A stretch of DNA of 64,000 nt from an uncultured Prevotella sp. (GTDB taxonomy: Bacteria > Bacteroidota > Bacteroidia > Bacteroidales > Bacteroidaceae). Position numbers and translations under genes: made by a program. The stretch covers positions 85,436 through 149,435 of the forward strand of contig CAJODL010000004.1 in NCBI GenBank assembly GCA_905233165.1, in the 5' to 3' direction. Positions 20,122 to 59,240 of this stretch are shown here, piece by piece; within the stretch, counting starts at the first letter, position 1; the number at the start of each line of letters is the position of its first letter. The notes beneath the pieces are model-generated. The model was not told where the DNA came from and made no database searches. It worked only from the letters and a program-made list of their open reading frames with translations.

Positions 20122-20198
20122 ATTGAACATTGAACATTGAACATTCTTTCAGTCGCTTCGCTTTGTGAAAGCGTCCCTTTGGGCCGAGCGGAACATTG
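20122..20198 (-). repeat. 65-nt structured dispersed element with heptamer flank, copy A (intergenic)
   Basis: On the minus strand this reads the same 65-nt core as copies B (40245-40323) and C (59141-59212), with two differences from copy C. Three heptamers ATTGAAC (plus strand 20122-20142) flank it. Inner complementarity: CGCTTT-GTG-AAAGCG (about 20159-20173) and CCC-TTT-GGG (about 20175-20183), enclosed by CGCT/AGCG, which gives a three-way-junction shape. It lies between the MerR gene and the HIT gene. Confidence 0.85.
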
Positions 20199-20213
20199 AA
20201 AGCCTCTCACCTC

Positions 20214-20561
20214 TCACACAATATTATCGAGAGCTGCTTTTATCTTGAGTAACTCTTCTTTTATGGATGTTAGTTTTTCTATCATGTCGGCGGTGCGGTC
20301 AACACCGGAGGGGTTAGTCTGTAACATCTTCTTTGCGGCAGCAAGCTTAAAGCCCCTGACCTTCACGAGGTTATAAATCTTCCTTAGGTCCTCAAGGTCC
20401 TTGGCCGAATACATACGCACTCTGCTTGACTGCACCACGCGAGGTTTCAGATTGGGAAACTCCGTCTCCCAATACCTCAGGGTAGAGTCTGAAACACCGA
20501 ACATCTCAGAAACCTCCCTGACAGAGTAATATGTCTTTAGATTCTTATCCTCGTTGAGCAT
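20214..20561 (-). CDS. MerR-family transcriptional regulator
   Basis: A 115-residue protein with the MerR winged-helix: YYSVREVSEMFGVSDSTLRYWE (residues about 11-32), then RMYSAKDLEDLRKI and a helical tail (EKLTSIKEELLKIKAALD) for dimerisation. There is no effector domain, so it is a short MerR-like protein of a type common in Bacteroidetes. It begins 4 nt after the antiporter fragment ends, so it is probably co-transcribed with it. The target genes are not known. Confidence 0.85.
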   Translation of the reverse strand: MLNEDKNLKTYYSVREVSEMFGVSDSTLRYWETEFPNLKPRVVQSSRVRMYSAKDLEDLRKIYNLVKVRGFKLAAAKKMLQTNPSGVDRTADMIEKLTSIKEELLKIKAALDNIV

Positions 20562-20564
20562 AGT

Positions 20565-21080
20565 TTATATCTCCTGTTCGAGTCGTTTGATGTCGTCCTC
20601 TTCGCCTACGACCCATATGATGTCCGCTGGCTGGAACATATAGAGTGGTGTGATATTGATGAGTTTGTCGTCATCCTCCTCCAGACCGATGAACATACAG
20701 TTGTATTTGTCGCGCAGATGGCTCGTGATGAGCGACTTCCCGACAAACGGGCTGTCAGGAGAAATGCCGAATCGCTTCAGCTGCATATCCTTTCCGTCAA
20801 GGTCCATCATCTCCGGCTCTATCTCCTGTTGCAAAGCCGTATTAAGCTTTGCCAGCTGTTCGTCATTACCGATGACGTTGAGTTGGTCGAGAGGGAATAC
20901 GATATTGCTGCCCGACGGGATGTTTATCTTCTTGTAGCCACGTATGATGCTGCTGACATGCACGCCAAAGCGGTTGCCCAAATCCAGTTCTTTCAACATC
21001 TTGCCGCCCCAAAGCGAGTTGTGCGGAACATCGACGGTAGCAATGTGAATATCTCGGTCTAACAGACGTCCCTCAAACAA
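20565..21080 (-). CDS. C-terminal part of frameshifted Kef-type antiporter (TrkA-C domains)
   Basis: An in-frame ATG exists at 21080, but the frame is open upstream to about 21150 and encodes RLFIQNLRSKEYALRASG, which is the natural continuation of the antiporter encoded in the other frame. The product contains two TrkA-C-like ligand-binding domains (HIATVDVPHNSLWGGKML; ISPDSPFVGKSLI). In related proteins these cytoplasmic domains regulate the transporter. I read this as the 3' part of one broken gene (20565-22806) rather than an independent protein. Confidence 0.75.
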   Translation of the reverse strand: MFEGRLLDRDIHIATVDVPHNSLWGGKMLKELDLGNRFGVHVSSIIRGYKKINIPSGSNIVFPLDQLNVIGNDEQLAKLNTALQQEIEPEMMDLDGKDMQLKRFGISPDSPFVGKSLITSHLRDKYNCMFIGLEEDDDKLINITPLYMFQPADIIWVVGEEDDIKRLEQEI

Positions 21081-22806
21081 CGGCCGCTTGGCACCGCTGG
21101 CACGAAGGGCATACTCCTTGGAACGGAGATTCTGGATGAATAGCCTTGAGCCACCGTGACATTATCATGAGGGTTACCAGTCCCAATGCCACGCAAATTA
21201 GAATAGCCTTGTTGAACTCAGTCACCATGTAGCAGACATAGAATACGAATGCCATAGCGATGATAATGCGCACAAGGATGGTGAAAATCAACGGCGCGCG
21301 GTTGCCTCGTGTCACCCACAGGGCATGGAATTCCTCACTCTTATTCTTCTTCATTACCATAGCCCTCAGGAATGGTGACATCAACAACAGAGTGACAGCA
21401 CCCACTATGATTTGCGCCCACTGCTCATAATGAGGTGGCATGATGCGTTGGGCTATTGGTAGTGTGAAGGTGCTCATGAAGGCAATGATGGCTATCGTCA
21501 GACAGGAGTAGATAAGAGTGTTGACACATATCTGACGGAGTAGTGGCTTCCAGTACCCTCCGGCGTTATTGTGACGCCCTGACGGTGCAATGTCGGAGAT
21601 ACGGTTGATGTATGTTATCCAACTTGCAGGCAGACGTTTCTCAAGAGTTTCATAGGCCGGCACCGCAAGGCGTATCATGTAAGGGGTGAGGAATGTCGTT
21701 ACGACAGATACCGTCACCACAATAGGATATACGACATCGCTCAATACATGCAGCGACAATCCTAAGGACGCAATGATAAAGGCAAACTCACCTATCTGCG
21801 CCATAGAGAAACCGCATCGCATCGCCGTCTTCAGGGGCTGACCGGAGAGCATAAAGCCAAACGTGCCGAAGATGCTCTGCCCCAAAAGTATTGCAATAGT
21901 AATGACAACAATCGTCAGCCATTGGTCAACAATGATATGAGCATCTACCAACATTCCGACAGATACGAAGAAGATGGCTCCGAATAAGTTCTTCACAGGT
22001 GCCACCACCTTCTCTATCTTCTTTGCCTCTACCGTCTCGGCAAGGATGCTACCCATTACGAAGGCTCCGAAGGCAGAGCTGAAGCCCGCCTTCGTAGATA
22101 GCACCGCCATAAAGCAACACATACCGAGGGCCACGATAAGCAACACCTCCTCATTCATAAGAGGCCTCACGCGACGCAGGAAGGTAGGGATAAGGAACAA
22201 GCCTACCACAAACCATATAATGATGACGAAGCCAATGTAGAGTATTGTCCGTAGCATCATACCGCCATCCGGTGACCCACCACCGGCAAGAGCTCCCAAT
22301 ATCACCATCATGACAATGGCAAGGATGTCTTCCAGTATCAGCACGCTCATAACGAGGCCCGCAAACTGTTGTTGCCTTAGCCCCATATCGTCGAATGCCT
22401 TGTAGATAATGGTGGTGGAGGACATGGCAAGCATACCGGCAAGGAACATTCCGTTTATCTGCGACCAACCGAAGAGTCGCGAGACAAGAATGCCTATCAT
22501 CATCATCGAGAACACAATAGTAAGGGCGGCGATGATTGGAGCCATGCCCATCTTCAGGATTTTCTTGAACGAAAAGTCCAAACCCAACGTGAAGAGAAGG
22601 AACATAACGCCGATGTTGCCCCATATCTCGATATTCTCGTGATCTACGACGGATACCGTGAGAGGGAAGTTTGGCGACACAATGAATCCTGCCATGATAT
22701 ATCCAAGCACAAGCGGCTGCTTGAGTTTCTTGAATATCAACGTCACAACACCCGCTGTGACGAGAATCAAGGCAAGATCCCGTACTATGGAAGGTATGTT
22801 GTCCAC
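21073..22806 (-). CDS. Kef-type cation:proton antiporter, membrane part (frameshifted)
   Basis: A monovalent cation:proton antiporter-2 (CPA2) family membrane protein. There are about 12 transmembrane segments, including the typical GYIMAGFIVSP, LFTLGLDFSFKK and GMLAMSSTTIIYKAF segments, then four further hydrophobic helices. The frame ends with about 15 foreign residues after SRWLK, while the family's usual cytoplasmic continuation is found in the next frame (20565 to about 21150). Relative to what I remember of homologues, a few residues are also missing, so a short deletion is more likely than a single-base change. The start is GTG at 22806, sharing one base with the acyl-CoA dehydrogenase stop codon. 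Confidence 0.8.
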   Translation of the reverse strand: MDNIPSIVRDLALILVTAGVVTLIFKKLKQPLVLGYIMAGFIVSPNFPLTVSVVDHENIEIWGNIGVMFLLFTLGLDFSFKKILKMGMAPIIAALTIVFSMMMIGILVSRLFGWSQINGMFLAGMLAMSSTTIIYKAFDDMGLRQQQFAGLVMSVLILEDILAIVMMVILGALAGGGSPDGGMMLRTILYIGFVIIIWFVVGLFLIPTFLRRVRPLMNEEVLLIVALGMCCFMAVLSTKAGFSSAFGAFVMGSILAETVEAKKIEKVVAPVKNLFGAIFFVSVGMLVDAHIIVDQWLTIVVITIAILLGQSIFGTFGFMLSGQPLKTAMRCGFSMAQIGEFAFIIASLGLSLHVLSDVVYPIVVTVSVVTTFLTPYMIRLAVPAYETLEKRLPASWITYINRISDIAPSGRHNNAGGYWKPLLRQICVNTLIYSCLTIAIIAFMSTFTLPIAQRIMPPHYEQWAQIIVGAVTLLLMSPFLRAMVMKKNKSEEFHALWVTRGNRAPLIFTILVRIIIAMAFVFYVCYMVTEFNKAILICVALGLVTLMIMSRWLKAIHPESPFQGVCPSCQRCQAAVV

Positions 22807-24584
22807 TATGCCTGATAGTCTGTCAGATTGTCAACAGTCAGTGACATGATGAAGTCATAGTGCTTCTCTATTTCAGCAGCAGCATAGCGGTTGTAAACCT
22901 TTGCAGACTTGGCGAAGAGCTCAGGATTCTTTGTTGCATCCCCTATGAGCAGCAGTGACATGATGATGTCGGCAGCCATTTCGTAGAGGTGACGCAGAAC
23001 GAGATTCTTGAAGTCATCGTCTTTCTGGTCGTTGGTATATGCCACAGCCTCGTTGTATTTCTCGGTAGCCTTTGCCATGCGCTCCTTGAGAGCAGCAAAC
23101 TCTGCACCACACCAGTTAGCATCACACTCACCAGCTTCTGCGAGAGAAGTCATAGCCATGCCTGCCTCGCCCTTTTCGAGCATGTCGGCAATAATCTGTC
23201 CGTATGTGCCGTTGGTGATATAACGTCCTGCTGCAACGCACTGCAACTGTGTAGTACCCTCATATATAGAAAGAATACGGGCATCGCGATAGAGACGCTG
23301 ACAAGCATATTCGAGCATGAAACCTGAACCGCCGTGTACCTGAATGCCGTCATAAGCATTCTGGTTGGCATACTCTGATGTCATACCTTTTGCAACAGGT
23401 GTAAAGGCATCAGCCAGACGTGCGAAGGTCTTGTATTCTGTGCGCTCTGCTGCCTCCAGCTTACCACCTTCTGCCTTGCGATCGCGCTCAATGTCTTCCC
23501 AGATCTTGTAGATGTCTACGTAACGTGCCGTAGCATAGTAGAGAGCACGGCCTGCATCAAGCTTTGCCTTCATTATTGCAAGCATGTCGTAAACAGCAGG
23601 GAACTCGATGATAGCCTTGCCAAATTGCTTACGGTCCTTAGCATACGCCAGAGCCTCGTTGTAAGCCATCTGTGACAGACCGGTTGATTGTCCGGCAATA
23701 CCCAAACGGGCACCGTTCATCAGCGCCATGACATATTTTATAAGTCCCAACTTGCGGTCACCGCAGAGCTCTGCCTTGGCATTCTTATAAACCAGTTCGC
23801 ATGTTGGAGAACCATGTATGCCCAGTTTGTTCTCGATACGACGTACATCAACACCACCGTTGCGCTTGTCGTAGATGAACATAGAAAGTCCGCGACCGTC
23901 GCGTGTGCCTTCTTCTGAACGAGCCAATACCAAATGGATGTCAGAATCACCATTGGTAATAAAACGCTTACAGCCGTTCAGACGCCAGCAGTCTTCCTTC
24001 TCGTCGTATGTAGCCTTCAGCATAACACTCTGCAGGTCGGAACCGGCATCAGGCTCGGTAAGATCCATAGACATTGTAGCACCTTCGCAAACACGAGGGA
24101 TGTACTTCTTGCGCTGCTCCTCATTACCGAATTCGTAGAGGGTAGAGATACAGTCCTGCAAAGACCATATATTCTCGAAACCGGTATCGGCAGTAGCCAT
24201 CATTTCGTTGATTGGAGCATAGACAAACTGTGGGAAGTTTAGACCACCATAGCGGCGTGGCATCAAGACACCATGCAGACCAGCCTGACGGCAAGCTTTA
24301 AGGTTGTCGTAGGTCTTGCTGGCATATACCATGCGGTTGTTCTCAACGTGAGGACCCTCAGCATCTACTGCCTCGGCATTAGGTGCTATGACATTAGCAC
24401 AGATGTCGCCGGCGAGACTGATGATGCGCTCGTAAGAGTCCATAGCATCCTCGAAATTCTCCGGTGCATAATCATACTTGCCGAAGTCGGCGTAGTTTCT
24501 TTCTTTCAGCTCAACGATGTGCTTGAGCAATGGGTGACTGAGATGGAACTTCATCTCAGGATTATCTAAATAGAAATTCATCAC
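22806..24584 (-). CDS. Acyl-CoA dehydrogenase
   Basis: A 592-residue FAD-dependent acyl-CoA dehydrogenase. Visible features: SMDLTEPDAGSDLQSV (FAD/substrate region), CKRFITNGD, YAKDRKQFGKAI, VHGGSGFMLEY and the catalytic-base region SIYEGTTQLQ. A C-terminal extension of about 130 residues puts it in the long ACAD group also seen in AidB-like and Bacteroidetes enzymes. It overlaps etfA by 4 nt (ATGA), so electrons most likely pass to the neighbouring ETF. The acyl chain length is not known. Confidence 0.92.
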   Translation of the reverse strand: MMNFYLDNPEMKFHLSHPLLKHIVELKERNYADFGKYDYAPENFEDAMDSYERIISLAGDICANVIAPNAEAVDAEGPHVENNRMVYASKTYDNLKACRQAGLHGVLMPRRYGGLNFPQFVYAPINEMMATADTGFENIWSLQDCISTLYEFGNEEQRKKYIPRVCEGATMSMDLTEPDAGSDLQSVMLKATYDEKEDCWRLNGCKRFITNGDSDIHLVLARSEEGTRDGRGLSMFIYDKRNGGVDVRRIENKLGIHGSPTCELVYKNAKAELCGDRKLGLIKYVMALMNGARLGIAGQSTGLSQMAYNEALAYAKDRKQFGKAIIEFPAVYDMLAIMKAKLDAGRALYYATARYVDIYKIWEDIERDRKAEGGKLEAAERTEYKTFARLADAFTPVAKGMTSEYANQNAYDGIQVHGGSGFMLEYACQRLYRDARILSIYEGTTQLQCVAAGRYITNGTYGQIIADMLEKGEAGMAMTSLAEAGECDANWCGAEFAALKERMAKATEKYNEAVAYTNDQKDDDFKNLVLRHLYEMAADIIMSLLLIGDATKNPELFAKSAKVYNRYAAAEIEKHYDFIMSLTVDNLTDYQA

Positions 24585-25621
24585 TTATTATTCTGCTTGT
24601 AATACTTTATCATTTTTGGAACCACCTCTTCTACTGTGCCATTGATGACATAGTCGGCTATGGTGTTAATAGGAGCATCAGGATCATTGTTGATAGAAAT
24701 AATGATGCCGGAATCCTGCATACCAGCGATATGCTGTATCTGTCCAGAGATGCCGCAGGCAATATACACCTTAGGGCGTACTGTGACACCAGTCTGACCT
24801 ATCTGACGGTCGTTGTCAATCCATCCAGCATCAACGGCAGCACGGGAAGCACCAACCTCTGCGTGGAGTTCCTTAGCCAATTCAAAGAGCATATCAAAAC
24901 CTTCCTTGCTACCAACACCGTAACCACCGGAAACGATAATTGGAGAACCTTTGAGATTATGCTTTGCCTGCTGAACGTGGCGGTCGATAACCTTTACCAC
25001 ATATTCTGTTTCAGGAACATATTTCGCAACGTCGTGGCGTATTACTTCACCTTTATAATTCTCGTCGAACACCTCTTTCTTCATCACACCCTCACGAACA
25101 GTTGCCATCTGTGGGCGATGTTCTGGATTTACGATTGTGGCAACGATATTACCACCGAAAGCAGGACGAATCTGCATGAGCTGATTCTCATAGTGCTTGT
25201 CAATCAGTTCGCCTGCCTCGTTCTTCACCTTCATGTCAAAATCGTCAATCTCCAACTGTGTACAATCGGCAGTCAGACCGCTGAAGAGAGCAGAAGAAAC
25301 GCGGGGACCGAGGTCGCGACCTATCACTGTAGCACCCATGAGGCATATCTGTGGTTTCTCCTCCTTGAAGAGGTTTACTACGAGAGCAGTATGAGGATTA
25401 GAGGTGTATGGGAACAGACCTTCTGCATCGAAGATATGTACTTTGTCAACACCATATTTTATTACTTGATTCTCAACACCGTCAAGGCCTGAGCCAGCGA
25501 TGATACATTCCAACTGCACACCGAGGGTGTTGGCAAGCTTACGCCCCTTGGTAAGGAGCTCGAGGGCTACATCCTTTACTTTCGTGCCCTCTATTTCACA
25601 ATATACAAAAACGCTATTCAT
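24581..25621 (-). CDS. etfA: Electron transfer flavoprotein, alpha subunit
   Basis: A 346-residue ETF alpha subunit. The C-terminal FAD-binding domain has the typical SGGYGVGSKEGFD, EVGASRAAVDAGW and GISGQIQHIAGMQDS motifs, ending with the NNDPDAPINTIADY segment. The N-terminal alpha/beta domain pairs with EtfB. It lies between etfB (65 nt upstream) and the acyl-CoA dehydrogenase (4-nt overlap), forming a classic electron transfer unit. Confidence 0.95.
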   Translation of the reverse strand: MNSVFVYCEIEGTKVKDVALELLTKGRKLANTLGVQLECIIAGSGLDGVENQVIKYGVDKVHIFDAEGLFPYTSNPHTALVVNLFKEEKPQICLMGATVIGRDLGPRVSSALFSGLTADCTQLEIDDFDMKVKNEAGELIDKHYENQLMQIRPAFGGNIVATIVNPEHRPQMATVREGVMKKEVFDENYKGEVIRHDVAKYVPETEYVVKVIDRHVQQAKHNLKGSPIIVSGGYGVGSKEGFDMLFELAKELHAEVGASRAAVDAGWIDNDRQIGQTGVTVRPKVYIACGISGQIQHIAGMQDSGIIISINNDPDAPINTIADYVINGTVEEVVPKMIKYYKQNNK

Positions 25622-25651
25622 ATAAGCTTTATTTTATTTTCTTTTTAATAT

Positions 25652-25661
25652 CCCCCCCCCC
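25652..25661. repeat. Homopolymeric C10 tract between etfB and etfA
   Basis: Ten C on the plus strand (ten G on the coding strand) lie 31 nt before the etfA start codon. Tracts of this length are prone to slippage. It is outside the coding sequences. Confidence 0.85.
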
Positions 25662-25686
25662 TATATGGAGAGGGCTGGGAGAGGCT

Positions 25687-26496
25687 TTAACCGATAATTT
25701 TGTCGTTAATCAGTTCTGCCATTAGGTTGTTGATGTCTTCGTCGGAGCCTGTCATTGTACGGCTTTCCTTTGCTTTGAAGACGATGTTCTCAACCTTCTT
25801 AACGTTAGTTGGTGACCCCGTCTTTCCAACCTGATTCATGTCGCAGTTGATGTCGGTAGCATTCCACTCAGGAATTACAGCCTTCTTGTATGTCATGATG
25901 CGTTTTGCATTTGCAGGGCGACACTCAGCAGCAGAACCGTTGACAGTAACAACGAGAGGCAGAGGAGCCTCTACGGTCTCTACGCCACCGTCAATATGAC
26001 GCTTGATGACGATTTTCTTTGCCTGTGGGTCGAGAGAGAGAATCTCTTCTGCATAAGTAACCTGTGTAAGGCCTAACTTCTCTGCTATCTGTGGTCCCAC
26101 CTGTGCTGTATCACCATCAATAGCCTGTCGTCCACCAAGGATGATGTCATAGTTGCCAATCTTCTTTATGGCTTGTGACAGGGTGTATGAAGTAGCGAGC
26201 GTATCTGCACCACCGAGACAACGGTCTGTTACCACATATCCTGCGTCAGCTCCACGATAGAGTGACTCACGGATGATGTCTGCAGACTTTGGCAAACCCA
26301 TGGTGACAACTGTGATGGTACTTCCCGGAAATTTCTCTTTCAGCTGGAGAGCTTGCTCCAAAGCATTGAGATCGTCGGGGTTGAAGATTGCTGGCAACGC
26401 ACTACGGTTGATAGTACCTTCTGCTGTCATAGCGTCAGGACCTACATTGTGCGTGTCGGGTACCTGCTTTGCAAGTACAACGATTTTCAAACTCAT
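25687..26496 (-). CDS. etfB: Electron transfer flavoprotein, beta subunit
   Basis: A 269-residue ETF beta subunit with the alpha/beta nucleotide-binding fold (MSLKIVVLAKQVPDT at the start, ADTLATSYTLSQAIKKIG, ILGGRQAIDGDTAQVGPQIAEKLG near the AMP/FAD site). It is first in the etfB-etfA-acyl-CoA dehydrogenase operon and has a good promoter upstream. EtfA/B accept electrons from the dehydrogenase; the final acceptor is not encoded here. Confidence 0.95.
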   Translation of the reverse strand: MSLKIVVLAKQVPDTHNVGPDAMTAEGTINRSALPAIFNPDDLNALEQALQLKEKFPGSTITVVTMGLPKSADIIRESLYRGADAGYVVTDRCLGGADTLATSYTLSQAIKKIGNYDIILGGRQAIDGDTAQVGPQIAEKLGLTQVTYAEEILSLDPQAKKIVIKRHIDGGVETVEAPLPLVVTVNGSAAECRPANAKRIMTYKKAVIPEWNATDINCDMNQVGKTGSPTNVKKVENIVFKAKESRTMTGSDEDINNLMAELINDKIIG

Positions 26497-26542
26497 GATT
26501 GTATTCTTTTAAATTAAGTAGATGTTTTTTCCTATTTCGCGC

Positions 26543-26575: not shown

Positions 26576-26643
26576 AAATAAACAAAAAATAACACAACAA
26601 TTGCGACTCTTTTCACGTTATTAAAGAGAAAAAAGGAAAAACA

Positions 26644-39852: not shown

Positions 39853-40605
39853 GTGTTTATAGAACAACCTTCCAAATGGATGAAATGGTTATATCCGAAG
39901 GCTTTGTGGCGCATGGACGCTGCGGAGCATTCGGTGTACCTGACATTCGATGACGGTCCGATACCCGAATCGACGCCCTTCATTCTCGATACACTCAAGG
40001 AGCTTGGCGTGAAGGCCACCTTCTTCGTGGTGGGTGAGAATGTGAAGCGTTATCCCGACCTTTTTCGCCGCATCATCAGCGAGGGTCATAGCATCGGCAA
40101 TCATACCTACAACCACATGGGTTCGCTGAAGCATTACGTCCGTACCTATCTCTCGAACATCGAGACAGCCGACGCCGTAATGCAGACGGCAGCGAATGTG
40201 GGCGGCTCAGAAGAGGTCAAAGGCTTGAAGGAATCAGAAGATTCCAATGTTCAATGTTCCGCTCGGCCCCAAGGGACGCTTTTACAAAGCGGAGCGACTA
40301 AAAGAATGTTCAATGTTCAATGTCCTAAGCCTCTCTTCCGGCCGCCGCATGGATGGATGTGGTTCAGTGCCTATCATCTGCTGATGAAGAAGGGCTATAC
40401 CATTGTGATGTGGGACCTTGTGACGCGTGACTATTCGCGCAACCTCAATGCCTTCGACGTGTTCAGAAATGTGGTCTATTACACCCGCAACGGCTCCATT
40501 ATCACCTTTCATGATTCGCTGAAGAGTATCCAGAAGCTGAAATACGCCCTTCCTGCCTCCATCCGCTACCTCAAGGAGCAGGGGTACGAGCTGAAAACGC
40601 TATAA
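39853..40605 (+). CDS. Polysaccharide deacetylase (NodB family) carrying an inserted repeat peptide
   Basis: A 250-residue carbohydrate esterase 4 type protein. The NodB motifs are TFDDGP (about 31-36), HTYNH (about 85-89) and FRPPHG (about 162-167), then MWDLVTRDY and FHDS near the end. Residues about 131-156 are encoded by a copy of the 65-nt dispersed element and read CSARP-Q-GTLLQS-G-ATKRMFNV; this lies in the loop just before FRPPHG, where relatives are shorter. It starts with GTG at 39853, 3 nt after the DUF2723 gene. Likely target: peptidoglycan or an exported polysaccharide. Whether the insertion affects activity is not known. Confidence 0.88.
   Translation: MFIEQPSKWMKWLYPKALWRMDAAEHSVYLTFDDGPIPESTPFILDTLKELGVKATFFVVGENVKRYPDLFRRIISEGHSIGNHTYNHMGSLKHYVRTYLSNIETADAVMQTAANVGGSEEVKGLKESEDSNVQCSARPQGTLLQSGATKRMFNVQCPKPLFRPPHGWMWFSAYHLLMKKGYTIVMWDLVTRDYSRNLNAFDVFRNVVYYTRNGSIITFHDSLKSIQKLKYALPASIRYLKEQGYELKTL
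40245..40323 (+). repeat. 65-nt dispersed element with heptamer flanks, copy B (inside polysaccharide deacetylase CDS)
   Basis: The core differs from copy C at two of 65 positions. ATGTTCA heptamers flank it on both sides. It is read in the frame giving GTLLQS and ATKRMFNV and contains no stop in that frame. No target-site duplication is obvious. Confidence 0.9.
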
Positions 40606-40610
40606 ATAAC

Positions 40611-40638
40611 GGGTAAAGGTTAACGGTTAAAGGTTAAA
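40611..40638 (+). repeat. Heptamer array, four units of GGTTAAA type
   Basis: GGGTAAA, GGTTAAC, GGTTAAA, GGTTAAA follow the stop codon of the deacetylase gene and precede the terminator. Confidence 0.85.
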
Positions 40639-40644
40639 GAATGA

Positions 40645-42069: not shown

Positions 42070-42118
42070 ATAATTCAAAATTCATAATTGATAATTCAAA
42101 ATTCATAATTCATAATTA
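42070..42118 (+). repeat. Heptamer array, seven units of ATAATTC/AAAATTC
   Basis: Seven 7-nt units run without gaps from just after the promoter to 2 nt before the ATG at 42121. The 5' untranslated region of the DUF1015 mRNA thus consists almost only of this array. Confidence 0.9.
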
Positions 42119-42120
42119 CC

Positions 42121-43389
42121 ATGGCAATAGTAAAACCATTCAAGGGCATTCGCCCACCAAAGGAGTTAGTAGAAGAAGTAGAATCACGCCCTTACGACGT
42201 GCTCGACTCCGAAGAAGCCCGCGCCGAAGCAGGCGATAACGAGAAATCACTCTATCACATCATCAAGCCCGAGATAAACTTCGCCCCCGGCACGAGCGAG
42301 TATGATCCGAAGGTGTACGAAGAGGCAGCACGCCAGTTTAAGAAATTCCAGGACAAGGGATGGCTCGTGCAGGACGACAAGGAACAGTACTACATCTATG
42401 CCCAGACCTCTTCACTGCCTGCCAACGGCGGAAAGGAAAAGACACAGTACGGTCTCGTAGTAGGCGCATACTCTGGTGACTATGAGAAGGGCATCATAAA
42501 GAAGCACGAACTGACACGCCGCGACAAAGAGGAAGACAGAATGAAACACGTCCGCGTGAACAATGCCAACATCGAACCCGTCTTCTTCGCTTATCCTGAC
42601 AACGAGACCCTCGACAAACTCATTATGCGCTATGCCGCAACAGAGCCTGAATATGACTTCGTTGCCCCTATCGACGGCTTCCGCCACAGACTATGGATTG
42701 TTTCTGACGATAAGGACATCGCCACCATAACAGAGGAATTTGCAAAGATGCCTGCCCTCTACATCGCCGACGGACACCATCGCTCCGCTGCCGCTGCGCT
42801 CGTAGGAACAGAGAAGGCGAAGCAGAATCCTAACCACAGGGGCGACGAGGAATATAACTACTTCATGGCTGTTGCATTCCAGGCAAGCCAACTGACAGTG
42901 CTGGATTACAACCGCGTAGTGAAAGACCTCAACGGCAACACTTCAGAGGAGTTCCTCGAGAAACTGCAGAAGAACTTCGTTGTAGAAAAGAAAGGCACAG
43001 CAGAGTATCGCCCACAGCATGCTCACCAGTTCTCACTGTATCTCGACGGCGAATGGTACAGCCTCGACGCAAAGCCAGGCACATTCGACGATAACGACCC
43101 AATCGGTGTGCTCGACGTCGATATCTCGTCACGACTCATACTGCAGGACATCCTCGAAATCGGCGACCTGCGTTCAAGCCAGCGCATAGACTTCGTAGGA
43201 GGACTGCGCGGACTGGGAGAACTGAAGAGACGCGTTGACTCTGGCGAAATGCGCATGGCACTGGCCTTGTATCCTGTATCGATGAAGCAGATAATGGATA
43301 TTGCCGACTCTGGTAATATCATGCCGCCAAAGGCTACATGGTTTGAGCCAAAACTGCGCTCAGGACTCATCATCCACAAATTGGAATAG
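42121..43389 (+). CDS. DUF1015 family protein
   Basis: A 422-residue protein starting MAIVKPFKGIRPPKELV, with the family's conserved RPYDVL and the short motif IADGHHRSAAA (residues about 215-225). DUF1015 proteins are often found beside serA/serC in Bacteroidetes and some are called putative HPr-kinase-like or SerB-type proteins, but no activity is settled to my knowledge. No ser genes are in this window. It is followed by a heptamer array and a MATE gene. Confidence 0.82.
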   Translation: MAIVKPFKGIRPPKELVEEVESRPYDVLDSEEARAEAGDNEKSLYHIIKPEINFAPGTSEYDPKVYEEAARQFKKFQDKGWLVQDDKEQYYIYAQTSSLPANGGKEKTQYGLVVGAYSGDYEKGIIKKHELTRRDKEEDRMKHVRVNNANIEPVFFAYPDNETLDKLIMRYAATEPEYDFVAPIDGFRHRLWIVSDDKDIATITEEFAKMPALYIADGHHRSAAAALVGTEKAKQNPNHRGDEEYNYFMAVAFQASQLTVLDYNRVVKDLNGNTSEEFLEKLQKNFVVEKKGTAEYRPQHAHQFSLYLDGEWYSLDAKPGTFDDNDPIGVLDVDISSRLILQDILEIGDLRSSQRIDFVGGLRGLGELKRRVDSGEMRMALALYPVSMKQIMDIADSGNIMPPKATWFEPKLRSGLIIHKLE

Positions 43390-43416
43390 TCAAAGGTCGA
43401 AGGTCAAAGGTCAAAG
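43389..43416 (+). repeat. Heptamer array, four units of GTCAAAG type
   Basis: GTCAAAG, GTCGAAG, GTCAAAG, GTCAAAG begin with the last base of the DUF1015 stop codon and end 16 nt before the MATE start codon. Confidence 0.9.
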
Positions 43417-43432
43417 GTTATTTTTCACTTTT

Positions 43433-53489: not shown

Positions 53490-53533
53490 AGTTTTTTTCT
53501 TCTAATGACATATATGTTTTATATCATTCGGCT

Positions 53534-53566
53534 ACAAAGGTATAAAATAAATCTTATATCCCCAAC
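53534..53566 (-). promoter_or_regulatory. Promoter of the LPG-synthase-TM-like gene
   Basis: On the minus strand GTTG (53563-53566) is followed after 20 nt by TACCTTTGT (53534-53542). The start codon is at 53489. Confidence 0.7.
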
Positions 53567-53584
53567 CATTTTGAGAATTTTTTC

Positions 53585-54736
53585 TTAATCCATCCTGCCT
53601 TTATAATCCTCATAGGTATAATGTCGCAGTGTGTGGATGCTTCCGTCAAGACGTTTTATTGCTATGTCAGGATGCTGTATTCCGTTGAACATTGTTGTCT
53701 TTACGGTGGTATAGTGAATCATGTCCTCAAAGATTATCGTGTCACCAACAGATAACGGTTCATCAAATTCCCAGTATCCCAAAAAGTCTCCTGACAGGCA
53801 GCTGTTTCCTCCCAAACGGTAAGCCTTTTCGCTGTTCTGTTCTATGTGGTGTGCTCCGCGAACCTCTGGGAAATATGGCATCTCCAGACAATCCGGCATA
53901 TGACAGGTGAATGATACATCGAGGATTGCGGTGCGGATATTGTGGTTCTCAACGATATCTACCACATGAGCCTCAAGATGTCCTGTCTGCCATGCAAACG
54001 CTGAACCTGGTTCCATTATCAGCTTTATGTGCGGATAGCGTTGATGGAAACCGTTTAGGGTGTCAATCAGCAGTTGTAAGTCATATCCCTTACGAGTCAT
54101 CAGGTGTCCGCCGCCAAAGTTTATCCATGAGATGTTTTGCGTAATTGGTGACGAAACAAGAAACTTTTCCTCCAAATGAGCTAATGTCCTCACAAAAACG
54201 TCTGCATCATTCTCGCAATGACAATGCATGTGGAGTCCTGTTATTGGGGGGATTTCGATGTCTGATGGGTCATAAGCCTTAAACAGTTCATCAGCAGTAA
54301 CGCCAAATCTCGTACCAGGAGAGCATGGATTATACAGGTCCGTAGCAATCTCCGAATATTCCGGATTGACCCTCAAACCTATCTGTAACTTCTCATTGGC
54401 CTTTTTTGCACGTTTTGCCAGACGGCGATATTGTGACAAAGAGTTGAATGTCAGGTGTGACGACATGCGGGCTATCATGTCAATCTCAGAATCCAGATAT
54501 GCCGGGGAGTATGTATGTGCCGGAGCACCAAACTCTTCGTGTGCCAGACGTGCTTCGTTAAGAGAGGAGGCTGTCGTTGCTGTGATATACTTCCGAAATA
54601 GAGGGAAAGTTTTCCAAAGAGCGAAAGCCTTGAATGCAAGAATTATTTGTATATTGGCTTCTTGGGAAACCTTTTGTATGACAGAAAGATTTTTTATCAA
54701 AAGAGCTTCCTTGAGAACGTAAGTGGGGTTATTCAT
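53585..54736 (-). CDS. nspC: Carboxynorspermidine/carboxyspermidine decarboxylase
   Basis: A 383-residue PLP-dependent fold-III decarboxylase that turns carboxyspermidine into spermidine (or carboxynorspermidine into norspermidine). The PLP lysine is in LAFKAFALW near residue 36. Other family features are INFGGGHLMTRKGYD, EPGSAFAW and GNSCLSGDFLG. I place the start at ATG 54736: an upstream in-frame TTG at 54763 lies within the -7 promoter element and cannot be in the mRNA. Together with aguA and aguB in the same region it supports a polyamine route. Confidence 0.92.
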   Translation of the reverse strand: MNNPTYVLKEALLIKNLSVIQKVSQEANIQIILAFKAFALWKTFPLFRKYITATTASSLNEARLAHEEFGAPAHTYSPAYLDSEIDMIARMSSHLTFNSLSQYRRLAKRAKKANEKLQIGLRVNPEYSEIATDLYNPCSPGTRFGVTADELFKAYDPSDIEIPPITGLHMHCHCENDADVFVRTLAHLEEKFLVSSPITQNISWINFGGGHLMTRKGYDLQLLIDTLNGFHQRYPHIKLIMEPGSAFAWQTGHLEAHVVDIVENHNIRTAILDVSFTCHMPDCLEMPYFPEVRGAHHIEQNSEKAYRLGGNSCLSGDFLGYWEFDEPLSVGDTIIFEDMIHYTTVKTTMFNGIQHPDIAIKRLDGSIHTLRHYTYEDYKGRMD

Positions 54737-54759
54737 GTTTATTATTGTTGAATTTGTGT

Positions 54760-54768
54760 GCAAAGGTA
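54760..54768 (-). promoter_or_regulatory. -7 promoter element of nspC
   Basis: TACCTTTGC on the minus strand lies 24 nt before the ATG. A -33 TTTG at the standard distance is not obvious. Confidence 0.6.
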
Positions 54769-54842
54769 CTAAAAAAGATTAAAAAAATACTTTCTTCAAA
54801 GTTGAAAGTGAAATAAAAAGGGCAAGTTGTTATATTTTTTTG

Positions 54843-54851
54843 TAATTTTGC
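54843..54851 (+). promoter_or_regulatory. -7 promoter element of the thiE-like gene
   Basis: TAATTTTGC ends 5 nt before the GTG start at 54856, so the mRNA should be leaderless or nearly so. Confidence 0.6.
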
Positions 54852-54855
54852 AGGC

Positions 54856-55461
54856 GTGAAACTTATAATACAGACATTACCGACATATTTTGTAGAGGAG
54901 GATAAGATACTAACAGCCCTTTTCGAAGAAGGCCTGGATGTCCTCCACATTAACAAACCCGAGTCAGAACCCCTTTATATGGAGCGACTGTTATCACTTC
55001 TTCCTACCAAGGTGTATGGTAAGATAGTGATACATCAGAATTACTACCTGATGAAGGAACATGACCTTAAAGGCATTCACATCGATAATCCCGATGCCCC
55101 TATTCCCGATGGCTTCAAGAGGCACATCTCTCGCAGTACTTACAGAATCAGTGACTTGAAGGGATTTAAGAAAGAGTGCGATTACGTAATGCTCCATTCG
55201 CTTTTCGATTCTCTGCATGATGAGGTAAAGGCATCCCTTACAATAGAGGAAATACAGGAGGCTCGCCGTGCAGGATTGATAGACAGACACGTTTATGCTC
55301 TCGGTGGTATGAGTCTTGAAAACGTGCAGCAGGCGAAGGATATGGGGTTTGGTGGAGTCGTAATATGTGGCGATTTGTGGAATAGGTTCAGCATACAACA
55401 CGGAATAAATTTCCACGAGCTGATAAGTCATTTTAAGAAATTGAAAAAAGCAATAAGTTAA
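54856..55461 (+). CDS. Thiamine-phosphate-synthase-like (ThiE/TenI family) protein
   Basis: A 201-residue TIM-barrel protein of the ThiE/TenI family. The pattern VLHINKPE, HQNYYLMKEHDLKGIHIDN and ALGGMSLENVQQAKDMGFGGVVICGDLW fits the family, but the phosphate and Mg2+ residues of true ThiE (DD and GPxFxT segments) are altered, for example MLHSLFDSLHDE in place of the GPIFPT loop. It may be a TenI-like or specialised enzyme. GTG start directly after a -7 element; it heads a co-directional run with prs and others. Confidence 0.75.
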   Translation: MKLIIQTLPTYFVEEDKILTALFEEGLDVLHINKPESEPLYMERLLSLLPTKVYGKIVIHQNYYLMKEHDLKGIHIDNPDAPIPDGFKRHISRSTYRISDLKGFKKECDYVMLHSLFDSLHDEVKASLTIEEIQEARRAGLIDRHVYALGGMSLENVQQAKDMGFGGVVICGDLWNRFSIQHGINFHELISHFKKLKKAIS

Positions 55462-55472
55462 CACAACGATAT

Positions 55473-56441
55473 ATGGCAAAGAAATCTTCTATTAAGATTG
55501 ACCCGGAAAAAATGGCTGGGTTTATGGTTTTCTCTGGTACAGCAACCCGTTATCTGGCAGAAAAGATATGTCAGAGTCTTGGTTGTCCACTGGGAAGTAT
55601 GGTAATGACAAAGTTCAGCGATGGTGAGTTCGCTGTCAGTTTCGAGGAGACAATTCGTGGTCGCGATATCTTCTTGGTTCAGAGTACTTTCCCTAATTCA
55701 GACAACCTGATGGAGTTGTTGCTGATGATTGATGCTGCAAAGCGTGCTTCAGCAAAGACCATCAATGCCGTAATACCTTATTTCGGCTGGGCTCGTCAGG
55801 ACCGTAAGGATAAGCCACGTGTCAGTATCGGTGCGAAGCTGGTTGCCGACCTGCTGAGTGTTGCAGGCATAGACCGCCTTATCACGATGGATTTGCATGC
55901 CGACCAGATACAGGGTTTCTTCGATGTTCCTGTTGACCATCTCTATGGTTCTGGTGTTATACTTCCATATATCGAAAGCCTCAAGCTGAAGGACCTCGTT
56001 ATCGCAAGTCCTGATGTGGGTGGTGCTAAACGTGCTAAGAGCTATGCTAAGTATCTCGACTGCCCGCTGGTATTGTGCAATAAGACCCGCGCTCGTGCCA
56101 ATGTGGTGTCAGAGATGCAGATTATCGGTGATGTGGAAGGCAAGGATGTTGTTATTGTTGACGATATGGTAGATACAGCAGGAACAATCACTAAGGCAGC
56201 TGATATCATGAAGGAAGCAGGAGCAAAGACCGTTCGCGCTTGTGCCAGCCACTGTGTTATGTCAGGACCTGCAAGTGAGAGAGTGCAGAATTCTGCTCTG
56301 GAGGAAATAATCTTTACTGATTCTATTCCTTACTCCAATAGATGTGCTAAGGTAAAGCAGCTCAGCGTTGCTGAAATGTTTGCTGAAACCATCAGAAGGT
56401 GTATCAACAACGAAAGTATTTCGTCACAATACATAATCTAA
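55473..56441 (+). CDS. prs: Ribose-phosphate pyrophosphokinase
   Basis: A 322-residue enzyme that makes PRPP from ribose-5-phosphate and ATP for nucleotide, His and Trp synthesis. Features: FSDGEFAVSFEETIRGRDIFLVQS, YFGWARQDRKDKPR, MDLHADQIQGFFD (metal/ATP loop) and the PRPP-binding loop VIVDDMVDTAGTI. Length is normal. It follows the thiE-like gene after 11 nt. Confidence 0.96.
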   Translation: MAKKSSIKIDPEKMAGFMVFSGTATRYLAEKICQSLGCPLGSMVMTKFSDGEFAVSFEETIRGRDIFLVQSTFPNSDNLMELLLMIDAAKRASAKTINAVIPYFGWARQDRKDKPRVSIGAKLVADLLSVAGIDRLITMDLHADQIQGFFDVPVDHLYGSGVILPYIESLKLKDLVIASPDVGGAKRAKSYAKYLDCPLVLCNKTRARANVVSEMQIIGDVEGKDVVIVDDMVDTAGTITKAADIMKEAGAKTVRACASHCVMSGPASERVQNSALEEIIFTDSIPYSNRCAKVKQLSVAEMFAETIRRCINNESISSQYII

Positions 56442-56463
56442 TCGCTTAAGAGAGAAAAAAGAC

Positions 56464-56790
56464 GTGGGGAGACTTAACTCTATATGGGATTATATCGCTC
56501 GGCATAAGTATCTGATTACTATTACGCTGGGTGTACTGATTATCGGCGTACTCGATGAGAATAGCGTCATGCGTTTGATTTCACTGAACATAGAAATCGA
56601 TGAAGCAAACCAGACACTCGAGGAGTATGTTGAACAGTACAAGAGCGATTCAGTAAAGATACATGAATATGAAACATCAGTCAGCGGTGTGCGTCGTATT
56701 GCTCGTGAGAAGTTTTTCATGAAGCAAGATGATGAAGACGTATATGTGCTGAGCACAGATCGGGAAGAAGAAAATGAAAGAGTTAAGTAG
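56464..56790 (+). CDS. DivIC/FtsB-like septum formation initiator
   Basis: A 108-residue bitopic membrane protein. A short cytoplasmic start is followed by one transmembrane helix (about 15-31, YLITITLGVLIIGVLD), a coiled coil (NIEIDEANQTLEEYVEQYK) and the conserved end segment RIAREKFFMKQDDEDVYVL typical of DivIC/FtsB. These proteins act with FtsL and FtsQ in the divisome. GTG start at 56464; it overlaps the following gene by 17 nt. Confidence 0.85.
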   Translation: MGRLNSIWDYIARHKYLITITLGVLIIGVLDENSVMRLISLNIEIDEANQTLEEYVEQYKSDSVKIHEYETSVSGVRRIAREKFFMKQDDEDVYVLSTDREEENERVK

Positions 56791-57184
56791 GAATCAGCAA
56801 ATTATCATGGCAATCGGCGCTACGCTGATGGTTATTGGGGTAGGGTGCTTCGTCTTTTACTTCATGCCAAAGGTGTTTTCGGTTGTCTTTATGGTCGGAG
56901 CTGTCTGCTTTGCCACTATGCAGATGATACAGGTATCTTCTGGTGATGGTAAGAATATCGCCATTCGCAGGTTGAAGGGAATAATGATTGCTGCAGACAT
57001 CTGCTTTATATTGGCAGGACTCCTGATGCTTGAAAATTCATACAAGGTACTTTATCAATACCTCTCGTGGGAAACATGGCTGAAATATTGTTGGAACAAC
57101 TGGGTTGTCGTCCTGCTTATAGCTGCCATTCTGGAACTCTATACCTCACATAGAATTTCCAATGAACTGAAAAAAAACAATTGA
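56774..57184 (+). CDS. Small membrane protein of unknown function
   Basis: A 136-residue protein with four predicted transmembrane helices (about 9-30, 33-51, 67-86 and 107-124). I do not recognise a named family; hypothetical proteins of this kind lie next to divIC in other Prevotella as far as I recall. It overlaps the DivIC-like gene by 17 nt and the lipoprotein gene by 4 nt, so it belongs to the same transcript. Confidence 0.65.
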   Translation: MKELSRNQQIIMAIGATLMVIGVGCFVFYFMPKVFSVVFMVGAVCFATMQMIQVSSGDGKNIAIRRLKGIMIAADICFILAGLLMLENSYKVLYQYLSWETWLKYCWNNWVVVLLIAAILELYTSHRISNELKKNN

Positions 57185-57888
57185 TGAGAAAACTTTCTAC
57201 CTTATTATATTATATAGTGATTATAGTATGCTTCACGGCATGCTCCCAATATAATGTCATCGGTTCGTCTGATTTAAGCGATATCGATGGCAGAACACTT
57301 TATATGAAGACTATAGGAATCGATTCTTTGACAACAGTAGATTCCTGCAGCATCATTCATGGTAAGTTTAAATTCTCAGGTTCACTCGATTCTACTCGTA
57401 TTGTGACCCTCTGTATAGATAATTTGCCTATCCTTCCTATTGTGTTGGAAGAGGGCGAGGTGCGTGTGACACTTAATGGACAGATGCAAGAGAGTAAGGG
57501 AACACCTCTTAACGATAGTCTCACTGCCTTCAATAAACGTTACGAAGCACTGCTGAGCCAATATGAAGACCTTGAACATACACAGAATCAGGGATATATG
57601 AATGGCGAGAATATGGATTCCATCAATGTCATTCTTGCAGCAAAGCAACGTCAACTTCTTATGAAGGAAGACGAATTGGTAACATCATTCATTTCTGCAA
57701 ACTTCGATAATTGTCTCGGCCCATATGTCTTTCAATTAGCAACCAGCAATTACAGGTATCCCGTTTTGGTACCTTGGATAGAAGCCCTGATGACAAAAGC
57801 TTCCCAAAAGTTTAAGGATGCTCCCTATGTAAAAGAATATATGGGAGTAGCGAAGCAGAATCAGGATATTATGACGGGTGTGAAATGA
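57181..57888 (+). CDS. DUF4369 domain lipoprotein
   Basis: A 235-residue exported protein with a lipobox (VCFTAC, Cys about residue 21). After it comes a beta-rich DUF4369 domain (KTIGIDSLTTVDSCSIIHGKFKFSGSLDS), as found at the N terminus of thioredoxin-like TlpA proteins in Bacteroidetes, but the thioredoxin domain is not present; the rest is helical. Function is not known. It overlaps pyrC by 4 nt. Confidence 0.78.
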   Translation: MMRKLSTLLYYIVIIVCFTACSQYNVIGSSDLSDIDGRTLYMKTIGIDSLTTVDSCSIIHGKFKFSGSLDSTRIVTLCIDNLPILPIVLEEGEVRVTLNGQMQESKGTPLNDSLTAFNKRYEALLSQYEDLEHTQNQGYMNGENMDSINVILAAKQRQLLMKEDELVTSFISANFDNCLGPYVFQLATSNYRYPVLVPWIEALMTKASQKFKDAPYVKEYMGVAKQNQDIMTGVK

Positions 57889-59240
57889 AGACACTGATTA
57901 AGGATGGTACTATTGTCAATGAAGGACATCAGCAAAAGGCTGATATCCTTGTTGTTGATGACAGAATAGCCTCTATTCTTCCCTGTGGCACCAATACTGC
58001 TGGTTGCGACAATGTTTTTGACGCAAAGGGCTGCTATGTTCTCCCAGGCATCATAGATACCCATGTACATTTTCGTGAGCCTGGCCTTACCCATAAGGCT
58101 GATATGCAGTCAGAAAGTCTGGCAGCACTCGCTGGTGGCGTCACATCCGTCTTTGAGATGCCCAATACGCAACCTCAGACAACGACATTGGCAGCGTGGG
58201 AAGAAAAGATGCAGATGGCACAGAGCAGGATGCATGTCAATTACGCCTTCTTCCCAGGCGCTACGAATGATAACCTCGAAGAGTTAAGGCATTTTGATGT
58301 CCATAGCATTCCTGGCATAAAACTCTTTATGGGTTCCAGCACAGGAAACATGCTGGTCGATAAGGAGCAGGCCCTTGATGGCATTTTCTCCCTTGCCAGC
58401 GAGATGTCGCTGCCCCTGATGGTACATTGTGAAGACACCACACTCATCAATCAGCATATAGAGTATTATAAGCAGCTGACAGGCTCCGATGACCCTGATG
58501 TGAAACTACATCCCCTCATACGCGATGAGGAAGCCTGTCTGCAATCTACGGAACTTGCTGTACGCCTTGCCCATAAGCATAATACACACCTTCATGTGGC
58601 ACATATCTCTACTCAGAAGGAACTGCCACTTCTTGGCGGCAATATTACAGGCGAAGCAACAGTGGCCCATCTGCTGTTCTCCGTACCTGATTACGGCACC
58701 CTCGGAACACGCATCAAATGTAATCCGGCAGTAAAGACAACCCTTGACCGCGATGCACTCCGTAAAGCCCTCTCAGATGGCACTATCACGACTGTTGCTA
58801 CTGATCACGCCCCTCATACGCTTGCAGAGAAACAGGGTGGGGCACTCAAGGCAATGTCAGGAATGCCTATGGTACAGTTCTCACTTGTGTCAATGCTCTC
58901 GTTAGTCGATGAAGGAGTACTGACTATAGAGCAGTTGGTGAAACTGATGTGTCATAATCCTTCGCTGTTGTTCAGCATCCGTGAACGCGGCTTCCTTCGT
59001 GAAGGATACAAGGCAGATATCGCTATTGTGAAACGCTTTGACACCCCGTGGACCCTTGACAGCAGTATGATTAAGAGTAAGTGCGGCTGGAGTCCCCTCG
59101 AAGGGCGACAGTTCCATTGGTCAGTAGTCGAAACACTCGTCAATGGTCAATGTTCCGCTCGGCCCAAAGGGACGCTTTTACAAAGCGAAGCGACTAAAAG
59201 AATGTTCAATGTCTTTGGCCAGCCCATAGAATTCAGATGA
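57885..59240 (+). CDS. pyrC: Dihydroorotase with a repeat-derived C terminus
   Basis: A 451-residue amidohydrolase of pyrimidine synthesis. Metal and active-site motifs are DTHVHFREPG (about 60), HCEDTTLI, HVAHIST and ATDHAPH. The end of the family's normal sequence is reached at ETLVNGQ (residue about 421); the following residues about 422-443 come from a copy of the 65-nt element (CSARP-K-GTLLQS-E-ATKRMFNV) and the protein then closes with FGQPIEFR. The element therefore replaces or interrupts the usual short C-terminal beta segment. It overlaps plsC by 4 nt. Confidence 0.92.
   Translation: MKTLIKDGTIVNEGHQQKADILVVDDRIASILPCGTNTAGCDNVFDAKGCYVLPGIIDTHVHFREPGLTHKADMQSESLAALAGGVTSVFEMPNTQPQTTTLAAWEEKMQMAQSRMHVNYAFFPGATNDNLEELRHFDVHSIPGIKLFMGSSTGNMLVDKEQALDGIFSLASEMSLPLMVHCEDTTLINQHIEYYKQLTGSDDPDVKLHPLIRDEEACLQSTELAVRLAHKHNTHLHVAHISTQKELPLLGGNITGEATVAHLLFSVPDYGTLGTRIKCNPAVKTTLDRDALRKALSDGTITTVATDHAPHTLAEKQGGALKAMSGMPMVQFSLVSMLSLVDEGVLTIEQLVKLMCHNPSLLFSIRERGFLREGYKADIAIVKRFDTPWTLDSSMIKSKCGWSPLEGRQFHWSVVETLVNGQCSARPKGTLLQSEATKRMFNVFGQPIEFR
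59141..59212 (+). repeat. 65-nt dispersed element with heptamer flank, copy C (inside pyrC)
   Basis: The same core as copies A and B; differs from each at two of 65 positions. It is read in the same frame as copy B. The internal inverted repeat CGCTTT-TAC-AAAGCG and CCC-AAA-GGG are kept. Confidence 0.9.

Follow-up and report, generated by a model that had tools for sequence, protein, structure and literature searches.

A 45-nucleotide hairpin element, likely mobile and free of target duplication, between and inside genes of Prevotella and other Bacteroidaceae

Three copies of one element in a Prevotella contig

We examined a stretch of 64,000 nucleotides (nt) of DNA from an uncultured Prevotella species (contig CAJODL010000004.1, positions 85,436 to 149,435; assembly GCA_905233165.1), called the window below; the host genome consists of 41 contigs totalling 3.02 Mb. 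A preliminary description of the window had proposed that a short structured element occurs in it three times, once between genes and twice in frame within unrelated genes, for a polysaccharide deacetylase and for dihydroorotase (pyrC). By reading the sequence and by running sequence patterns and a covariance model on the window, we found the copies (A, B and C) at these places. The pattern CGCTCGGCCCAAAGGGACGC, with up to 3 mismatches allowed, has 3 matches in the window compared to a mean of 0.00 over 100 shuffles. The covariance model finds exactly copies A, B and C (E-values from 1.8e-15 to 2.2e-16), which is not an independent test because all three sit in its source alignment. The copies, the open reading frames (ORFs) that hold two of them, and the 7-bp (heptamer) arrays beside them are arranged as follows.

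20122..20145, minus strand: heptamer array (AATGTTC)x3 + AAT, 3' of copy A
20146..20190, minus strand: copy A, 45-nt element, between genes; the start codon of ORF 19685-20110 (minus strand) lies about 36 nt downstream of it
20191..20197, minus strand: lone AATGTTC heptamer, 5' of copy A
39853..40605, plus strand: polysaccharide deacetylase (NodB-like) ORF, holding copy B a short distance before its FRPPHGW stretch
40246..40259, plus strand: two AATGTTC heptamers, 5' of copy B, in frame
40260..40304, plus strand: copy B, 45-nt element, in frame within the polysaccharide deacetylase gene
40305..40325, plus strand: AATGTTC AATGTTC AATGTCC, 3' of copy B, in frame
57885..59240, plus strand: pyrC (dihydroorotase) ORF, with copy C in its C-terminal tail
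59139..59155, plus strand: array GTCAATG GTCAATG TTC, 5' of copy C, overlapping native VNG codons
59156..59200, plus strand: copy C, 45-nt element, in frame close to the 3' end of pyrC
59201..59212, plus strand: AATGTTCAATGT heptamers, 3' of copy C

The name polysaccharide deacetylase is that of the preliminary description and fits the NodB motifs; the names pyrC (from the same source) and carA (below) rest on reading of the sequence.

The body common to the three copies is 45 nt long, running from CGCTCGG to TRAAAG. The preliminary description had defined a longer core of 65 nt; it was right that the copies are one element, but filled and empty sites (below) set the unit at 45 nt. Its count of two differences from copy C is true of each of the other copies: in end-to-end alignments A differs from C at two positions and B at two others, and the changes in A (T24C and A41G) are at stem partners. 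A scan of the window with Rfam gave no family above the gathering score at the element copies, the sole match being an L13-Bacteroidia ribosomal protein leader (RF03127) at 9871-9948.

The element is dispersed, as had been proposed. A search of the whole host genome with a 64-nt core gave 16 matches at E-values up to 10, and six of them span 63 nt or more of this core. One of these six full copies lies inside a third gene in frame, tsaE (..NVQCSARPKGTLLQSEATKRMFNVQS..), and all six are flanked by AATGTTC on the right and by AATGTTC or CATGTTC on the left. In a sample of the genus, 82 of 200 genomes match at E 0.01 (host included, with at most about four matches scored per genome). At E 1e-4, 12 of 201 genomes match in a sample of the family, spread over 5 of its 30 genera and including the host, and in a sample of the order only the host does (1 of 198). 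A scan of contigs from assembled genomes found at least 115 matching stretches, and the records of 80 of these name Prevotella, Xylanibacter, Prevotellaceae, Bacteroidaceae or Bacteroidales. Collections of plasmid and phage reference sequences had zero matches at E 0.01. In IMG/VR, five contigs carry the exact right half of the element, which in two of the three that we read lies shortly before a start codon.

Exact ends, insertion sites and structure

The preliminary description had suggested that empty sites be used to find exact ends, and the comparison gave a difference of exactly 45 nt with no duplication of the target. The closest relative that we found (genome G192; genomes and loci are labelled G and L below) is 93% identical to the host over 14.5 kb around pyrC. 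Its tsaE gene lacks the element and contains four heptamers (AATTGTC AATTGTC AACTGTC AATTGTC), whereas the host gene has two AATGTTC heptamers, the element, and two more AATGTTC heptamers. When exactly 45 nt are removed from the host gene, the two align without gaps over 400 nt at 93.25% identity. Upstream of tsaE the situation is reciprocal: G192 is filled and the host is empty, with the sequence AATTTTC^AATGTTCAATG (^ marks the insertion point), although one left heptamer differs. In a more distant genome, G108 (74% identity around pyrC), tsaE is filled too, at the heptamer boundary used in the host. Since G108 and the host are filled and G192 is empty, either G192 has lost the element exactly or the element was gained twice at one base.

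Sites of other kinds have equally sharp ends. At a non-heptamer site, L056 is filled, whereas L071 and L153 have paralogous copies of the surrounding repeat with an empty site (TTGTT^AAACGACCCC); 24 of 24 bases agree and there is no duplication. Comparison of L080 and L082 with L117 gives agreement with one mismatch. In L130 a 45-nt variant is nested within another copy, at CTTTCAC^AAAGCG. In the tandem copies of L065, L095 and L145 the ..AAAG end is joined directly to the next start, with no AA between them. The copies in L074, L094, L116 and L144 are surrounded by sequences like the T-loop of tRNA or tmRNA (TTCG^AA, GTCG^AA or ATCG^AA). L229 (6844-6998), L074, L116 and L144 have repeated stretches that resemble tRNA/tmRNA 3' tails, and in these the element precedes AA at the T-loop.

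Our set of 167 copies consists of unique fuzzy matches and holds a few mis-phased or chance ones (L103; L130 at 3118; L149 at 5725); ends were defined for 132 sites in this set and for 152 in a later, larger one. The bases AA come next after the copy in 155 of the 167 copies, and at 143 of the 152 sites with defined ends. Together with the filled and empty sites, this indicates that AA belongs to the target, of which we saw no duplication. The 152 sites comprise 61 of heptamer type (at least 5 of 7 bases match across the junction), 10 in hairpin loops, 9 tandem and 72 others. Hairpin stems of at least 8 bp surround 8 of the 152 sites (shuffled mean 1.8, largest 7). A general preference for hairpin loops is unclear at stems of 6-7 bp: stems of at least 6 bp surround 11 sites compared to a shuffled mean of 9.0 (largest 17) and stems of at least 7 bp surround 10 compared to 4.1 (largest 11), and these ten come from one palindrome family.

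Over the 167 copies the right part of the element, CTTTYA-CAAA-GCGNAGC-GAC-TRAAAG, is nearly constant, although the search pattern favors this part. Its GCGNAGC core is similar to a mini-hairpin of high stability, d(GCGAAGC). The left hairpin falls into several types with characteristic lengths: the element is 45 nt long in 47 of 47 copies of the type CGCTCGGCCC..GGGACG, 41 nt in 19 of 20 copies of the type CGCTCGGCTYTGCCG, 39 nt in all 18 copies of the type ACTCGCTTTAGCG, and 39-45 nt in the 47 copies with a TAATCG-like left part, with 35 further copies unclassed. Judged by sequence, the element of the window is one type of a wider set that has a constant right hairpin and differing left hairpins.

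The preliminary description had drawn the element as a three-way junction, but covariation favors two consecutive hairpins. We compared the two models on an alignment (A1) of 28 distinct variants, made from 30 distinct 45-nt variants by excluding 3 with another left part or a deletion and adding the nested variant of L130. In the two-hairpin model 98.9% of cells are paired, and three pairs show double changes in a total of 16 cells (shuffled mean 4.5, with none of 500 shuffles as high). In the three-way junction 98.3% of cells are paired and one pair shows double changes, in 3 cells, all in a CCC/GGG helix that is common to both models. In the 161 copies that start the right part with CTTT, the pair 5/22 of its outer stem (CTTTYA/TRAAAG) is T-A in 109, C-G in 46, A-T in 1, T-G in 1 and unpaired in 4.

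Copies inside genes and the heptamer arrays

Seven copies were counted as lying inside genes, and all seven are read in one frame (..GTLLQSEATKR.. or variants). They are in pyrC, the deacetylase gene and tsaE of the host, tsaE of G108 (L021), a carA-like ORF (L127), L122, and the C-terminal end of an ORF in L143; those in tsaE of the host and of G108 are at one orthologous site. Ten copies had been called intragenic, and we dropped a coding look-alike (L103), a copy that overlaps the end of an ORF on the opposite strand (L052), and a copy in a short ORF, in the same frame (L107). The preliminary description had claimed the same frame and the same peptide for pyrC and the deacetylase: the frame is indeed the same, but two residues of the peptide differ (KGTLLQSEATK and QGTLLQSGATK). 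As it had noted, two of the three forward frames of the element are free of stop codons. The AATGTTC array is open in all forward frames, whereas its reverse strand contains TGA; this would account for the copies in genes being in sense orientation.

Neither of the two conditions that the preliminary description had named as refuting holds: the PyrC relatives lack the peptide, and the genome has further copies. A search with PyrC matched 109 of 120 genomes (host included). Leaving aside the host and fragments of the gene, the last aligned residue lies between 421 and 434 in all but G118; there it is residue 450, and the G118 tail lacks the peptide. At the place of the insert, PyrC has VSGVAAQKN in G192 and GTSAEALEFER in G108. 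At these protein loops the relatives compared have other heptamer arrays or nothing; the deacetylase loop before LFRPPHGW has other heptamer arrays in G192 and G108. In G192 this loop (L301) also has another palindromic stretch, CCCCCTCCCTATCGGGGAGGTCGGGTGGGGGG, in frame with its other heptamers. The TsaE insert falls between NEY and (I/V)YHFD, in a loop of variable length where 21 aligned sequences differ widely, and in a solved TsaE structure (9zw5) the loop is shorter than in G192. Downstream of pyrC in G027 there is a 39-nt variant of the element (L181, 2845-2883; E 0.013). We also saw ORFs whose first ATG is supplied by an AATGTTC array or an element flank: the hisD-like and hisG-like ORFs of G192 (L242) and a peptidase T-like ORF (L003), with the starts MFNIQCS.., MFNKKIN.. 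and MFNVQCS...

The heptamers that the preliminary description had reported as flanks (ATGTTCA) are present, but they are separate, lineage-specific tandem arrays of period 7 rather than parts of the element, and such arrays are also found without it. In the window they occur without the element at 8865-8921, 40607-40639, 42072-42117, 43389-43418 and 63118-63145. Among tandem arrays, those of period 7 are the most frequent in the window (9.4 per 100 kb, followed by period 11 at 4.7) and in the element-bearing loci (13.3, followed by period 8 at 3.2), and in PyrC loci they occur at 7.2 per 100 kb with zero of any other period. They are outnumbered by those of another period in loci of S23 genes (13.6 compared to 25.2 for period 8) and of Y1 transposase genes (5.2 compared to 6.3 for period 9). 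The last 7 bases to the left of the element and the first 7 to its right have an identity of 0.526, compared to 0.348 in shuffled pairs (132 copies), and at periods 4-6 and 8-11 the identity is at most 0.035 above controls, the association between element and arrays being confined to period 7. In the TsaE loop, 17 of the 28 loops that we read among the 30 best-matching tsaE loci (L324-L353) have an in-frame array of period 7 and none has another period. The unit of these arrays varies among loci, even between the host and G192. Because 7 is not divisible by three, the period is probably set by a mutational source and not by coding. Excerpts of two papers that cite Mrazek report that, in most genomes, heptamers are the unit found most often in the longer simple repeats, with polymerase slippage as a proposed cause (PMC4679880, PMC4692102).

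By position, the 167 copies divide into 89 between co-directional genes, 22 between convergent and 13 between divergent genes, 33 at locus edges and the 10 called intragenic. We sought a recurrent neighbor gene among 293 adjacent ORFs and found none, the largest clusters having 4 members.

Origin of the element and relation to known systems

The exact presence or absence of 45 nt, the lack of duplication, the AA rule, the nested and tandem copies, the covarying outer stem and the single frame in genes lead us to lean, by a small degree, towards the view that the copies form one family of short non-autonomous elements, likely mobile, of 45 nt (39-45 nt in the sister types), with two predicted hairpins and a position exactly 5' of AA. 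The element would move as single-stranded hairpin DNA, and a transposase of the HUH/Y1 type acting in trans would cut and join it, in the manner of repetitive extragenic palindromic (REP) sequences. Exact, duplication-free insertion of a single strand is the behavior of IS200/IS605-like ends. According to the part of PMC6006769 consulted, REP-like hairpins are thought to move as single-stranded DNA through HUH enzymes. Insertion would often fall between units of the lineage-specific 7-bp arrays, leaving the target unduplicated. Survival in genes could follow from a length of 45 nt (15 codons), two open forward frames and the retention of heptamer numbers that keep the frame, so that the element would stay in tolerant loops and protein ends. 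We put forward only tentatively a more specific picture, in which protein-decorating hairpins confined to the Bacteroidaceae jump as single-stranded DNA with base-exact insertion and excision, land in hypervariable 7-bp arrays and in the loops of REPs and of tRNA-like sequences, and thereby seed lineage-specific 15-codon peptides in loops of essential proteins such as TsaE, PyrC and CarA, the enzyme being an HUH transposase in trans or another one.

Several observations weigh against mobility of this kind. We found no mobilizing enzyme: the covariance model matches 1 of 64 Y1_Tnp loci (those fetched, which are part of the Y1 genes found) and 1 of 59 control loci. A Y1_Tnp or RAYT (REP-associated tyrosine transposase) gene as flanking partner is thus unsupported, and we keep such an enzyme as a possible one in trans. 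Among the genus genomes, 55 have both a Y1_Tnp match (E 0.001) and the element, 27 the element only, 56 Y1_Tnp only and 62 neither, which is a weak association (Fisher p 0.006, with many assemblies incomplete). The ends of the element lack a GTAG tag. Lagging-strand preference is a trait of IS200/IS605, and GC skew gives no strand bias (59 of 117 positive) and hence no sign of it. When the host type is folded by energy, the three-way junction of the preliminary description comes out as the structure of minimum energy, and as RNA this type is no more stable than shuffled sequences (z -0.73), whereas the other four types folded have z-scores of -1.80 to -3.21 as RNA and the host type has -2.27 as DNA; the two-hairpin form and the three-way junction may alternate. 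The case for movement, moreover, is comparative.

In genus g24, Y1 genes of the YI/VHQNP type are present in all 6 element-bearing genomes searched, whereas Y1_Tnp had no match in G276, a g10 genome. Three genomes of g24 have seven copies (L381, L383, L384, L385 twice, L386 and L388) that lie inside GACGCAAA..TTTGCGTC palindromes, and similar palindromes adjoin the Y1 gene of L374 (genome G223, also g24). The copy in L391 is in a GCCAAAGAG^AACCGTCCCC palindrome, like one that adjoins a Y1 gene elsewhere in that genome (L371). The single match among the 64 Y1 loci (L290, 2104-2135) is a variant shortened to 32 nt, whose right hairpin is simple (CTTTGC TT GCAAAG) and which lies 29 nt past a Y1 gene. 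The four-helix S23/IVP proteins (PF05635), made candidates by the heptamer arrays beside two of their genes, were rejected as mobilizers: the family is in 175 of 200 genomes, yet the 30 loci fetched are without the element. S23/IVP genes (up to 15 PF05635 matches per genome) in L244, L249 and L251 are bounded by short tandem arrays, seemingly inverted on the two sides.

A rival explanation is that the element does not transpose and that homologous recombination or gene conversion, acting through the 7-bp arrays beside it, copies it to other loci. This would fit the heptamer flanks of all six full host copies and the 61 of 152 sites that match across the junction once tandem and hairpin-loop sites are set apart. 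It does not account for the 72 other, 10 hairpin-loop and 9 tandem sites, and there is no array at the TTCG^AA sites, at TTGTT^AAACG or around the nested copy of L130. Recombination would also usually alter the number of heptamers, whereas at tsaE exactly 45 nt differ and both genomes have four, so we consider this explanation unlikely. We give a similarly low probability to a role as RNA, in which the element would act in 5' leaders and between cistrons to control mRNA stability or translation, and its copies in genes would be incidental. In its favor, 89 of the 124 intergenic copies with a gene on both sides lie between co-directional genes, 67 of the 89 are in sense orientation, and in the 80 copies followed by a gene on the same strand the median distance to its start is 46 nt. 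However, the co-directional share is near that of all gaps longer than 40 nt in the same loci (254 of 390), 22 of the 89 copies are antisense, copies also occur in T-loop-like sites, REP-type palindromes and coding regions, and the RNA fold of the host type is not unusual.

An old family that is now immobile, inherited vertically and eroding, as suggested for CGTC repeats in the part of PMC3733652 consulted, would be consistent with sites that are orthologous between species (L053, L068 and L114) and with the missing mobilizer in the Y1 loci, but the host and G192 show reciprocal presence and absence at 93% nucleotide identity, and unrelated loci hold copies identical over 45 nt; this too seems improbable to us. 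We give still less credence to mobilization by a system outside the HUH class. An IS110-type recombinase, for example, would likewise duplicate the target little or not at all, and it may favor REP loops. The copies inside palindromes like those flanking the Y1 gene of L374, and the excess of stems of at least 8 bp, are in line with it, and REP-targeting insertion sequence elements have been described, according to an excerpt of PMC1525189. At shorter stems, however, the excess is unclear, and the ten sites with at least 7 bp come from a single palindrome family. The 45-nt element is also too small for the guide RNA of IS110-type enzymes.

We did not find a description of the element in the open-licence literature searched, nor the 14-mer AAAGCGAAGCGACT among the papers listed there. 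Our preferred reading is a new family of hairpin elements that insert without duplication and that an HUH-type transposase likely moves, in trans, as single-stranded DNA. In-frame selfish inserts in housekeeping genes are best known from Rickettsia (PMC10969869, in part). If our interpretation is true, the element adds a new example to the DNA inserts by which working proteins are decorated, and it comes from an unrelated lineage of gut bacteria in which many sequenced relatives, exact alleles and a covarying structure make the movement of such inserts, and their tolerance by proteins, testable. The period-7 arrays in one TsaE loop are a separate puzzle. Heptanucleotide repeats of Calothrix, and TAACTGA of Beggiatoaceae, are tandem and many lie just upstream of start codons (PMC4679880 and PMC4692102, in the excerpts available). 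The heptamers here differ in three ways: they also stand in frame in genes, their unit varies from one relative to another at a single site, and a structured insert lies among them. The 45-nt element itself is not an array.

Among miniature inverted-repeat transposable elements (MITEs), those derived from IS200/IS605 (palindrome-associated transposable elements, PATEs) share hairpin ends and insertion without target duplication. For the present element there is no parent with matching ends in the Y1 loci fetched, and the only target preference seen is ^AA. A MITE of a DDE transposon needs terminal inverted repeats and target duplication, whereas here CGCT.. and ..AAAG are not inverted and the empty sites show no duplication. 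CGTC-tagged repeats are also short palindromes with no identified transposase that occur in coding regions as well, in five phyla including Bacteroidetes, according to the part of PMC3733652 consulted; they have CGTC, TGTC or CCTC at one end and a single hairpin, whereas our element has no such tag and two hairpins.

The REP/RAYT (TnpA-REP) system of Bacteroidetes, subclass 2.6/RAYT group 5, is similar in having short dispersed hairpins with reported in-frame copies, and structures of this subclass are atypical and lack the GT[AG]G tag (PMC6006769, in excerpt). RAYT REPs carry 5' GTAG or GTGG at the foot of the hairpin and flank a cognate Y1_Tnp gene, unlike the present element, which ends in neither and matches Y1 loci no more often than controls. 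The YIHQNP-type Y1 genes that we read mostly have their own palindromes nearby (of the GGGGACGG, GGGGACAG and GACGCAAA types), and the element lies inside such palindromes at some sites. REPs insert without target-site duplication, as the present element does at its filled and empty sites. The Rickettsia palindromic elements (RPEs), to which the preliminary description rightly likened it in principle, are short structured repeats that occur between genes and in frame in unrelated genes, where they give a recurring peptide. They are about 150 bp long by the available part of PMC10969869, and by their description are set apart from our element, which is 45 nt long, belongs to the Bacteroidaceae and is tied to 7-bp arrays. 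A terminal CGTC is reported for RPE-4 and RPE-6 of R. conorii (PMC3733652, in part), whereas the ends here are CGCT.., TAATCG.. or ACTCG.. and ..TRAAAG. The element works like RPEs and REPs but does so without their sequence tags.

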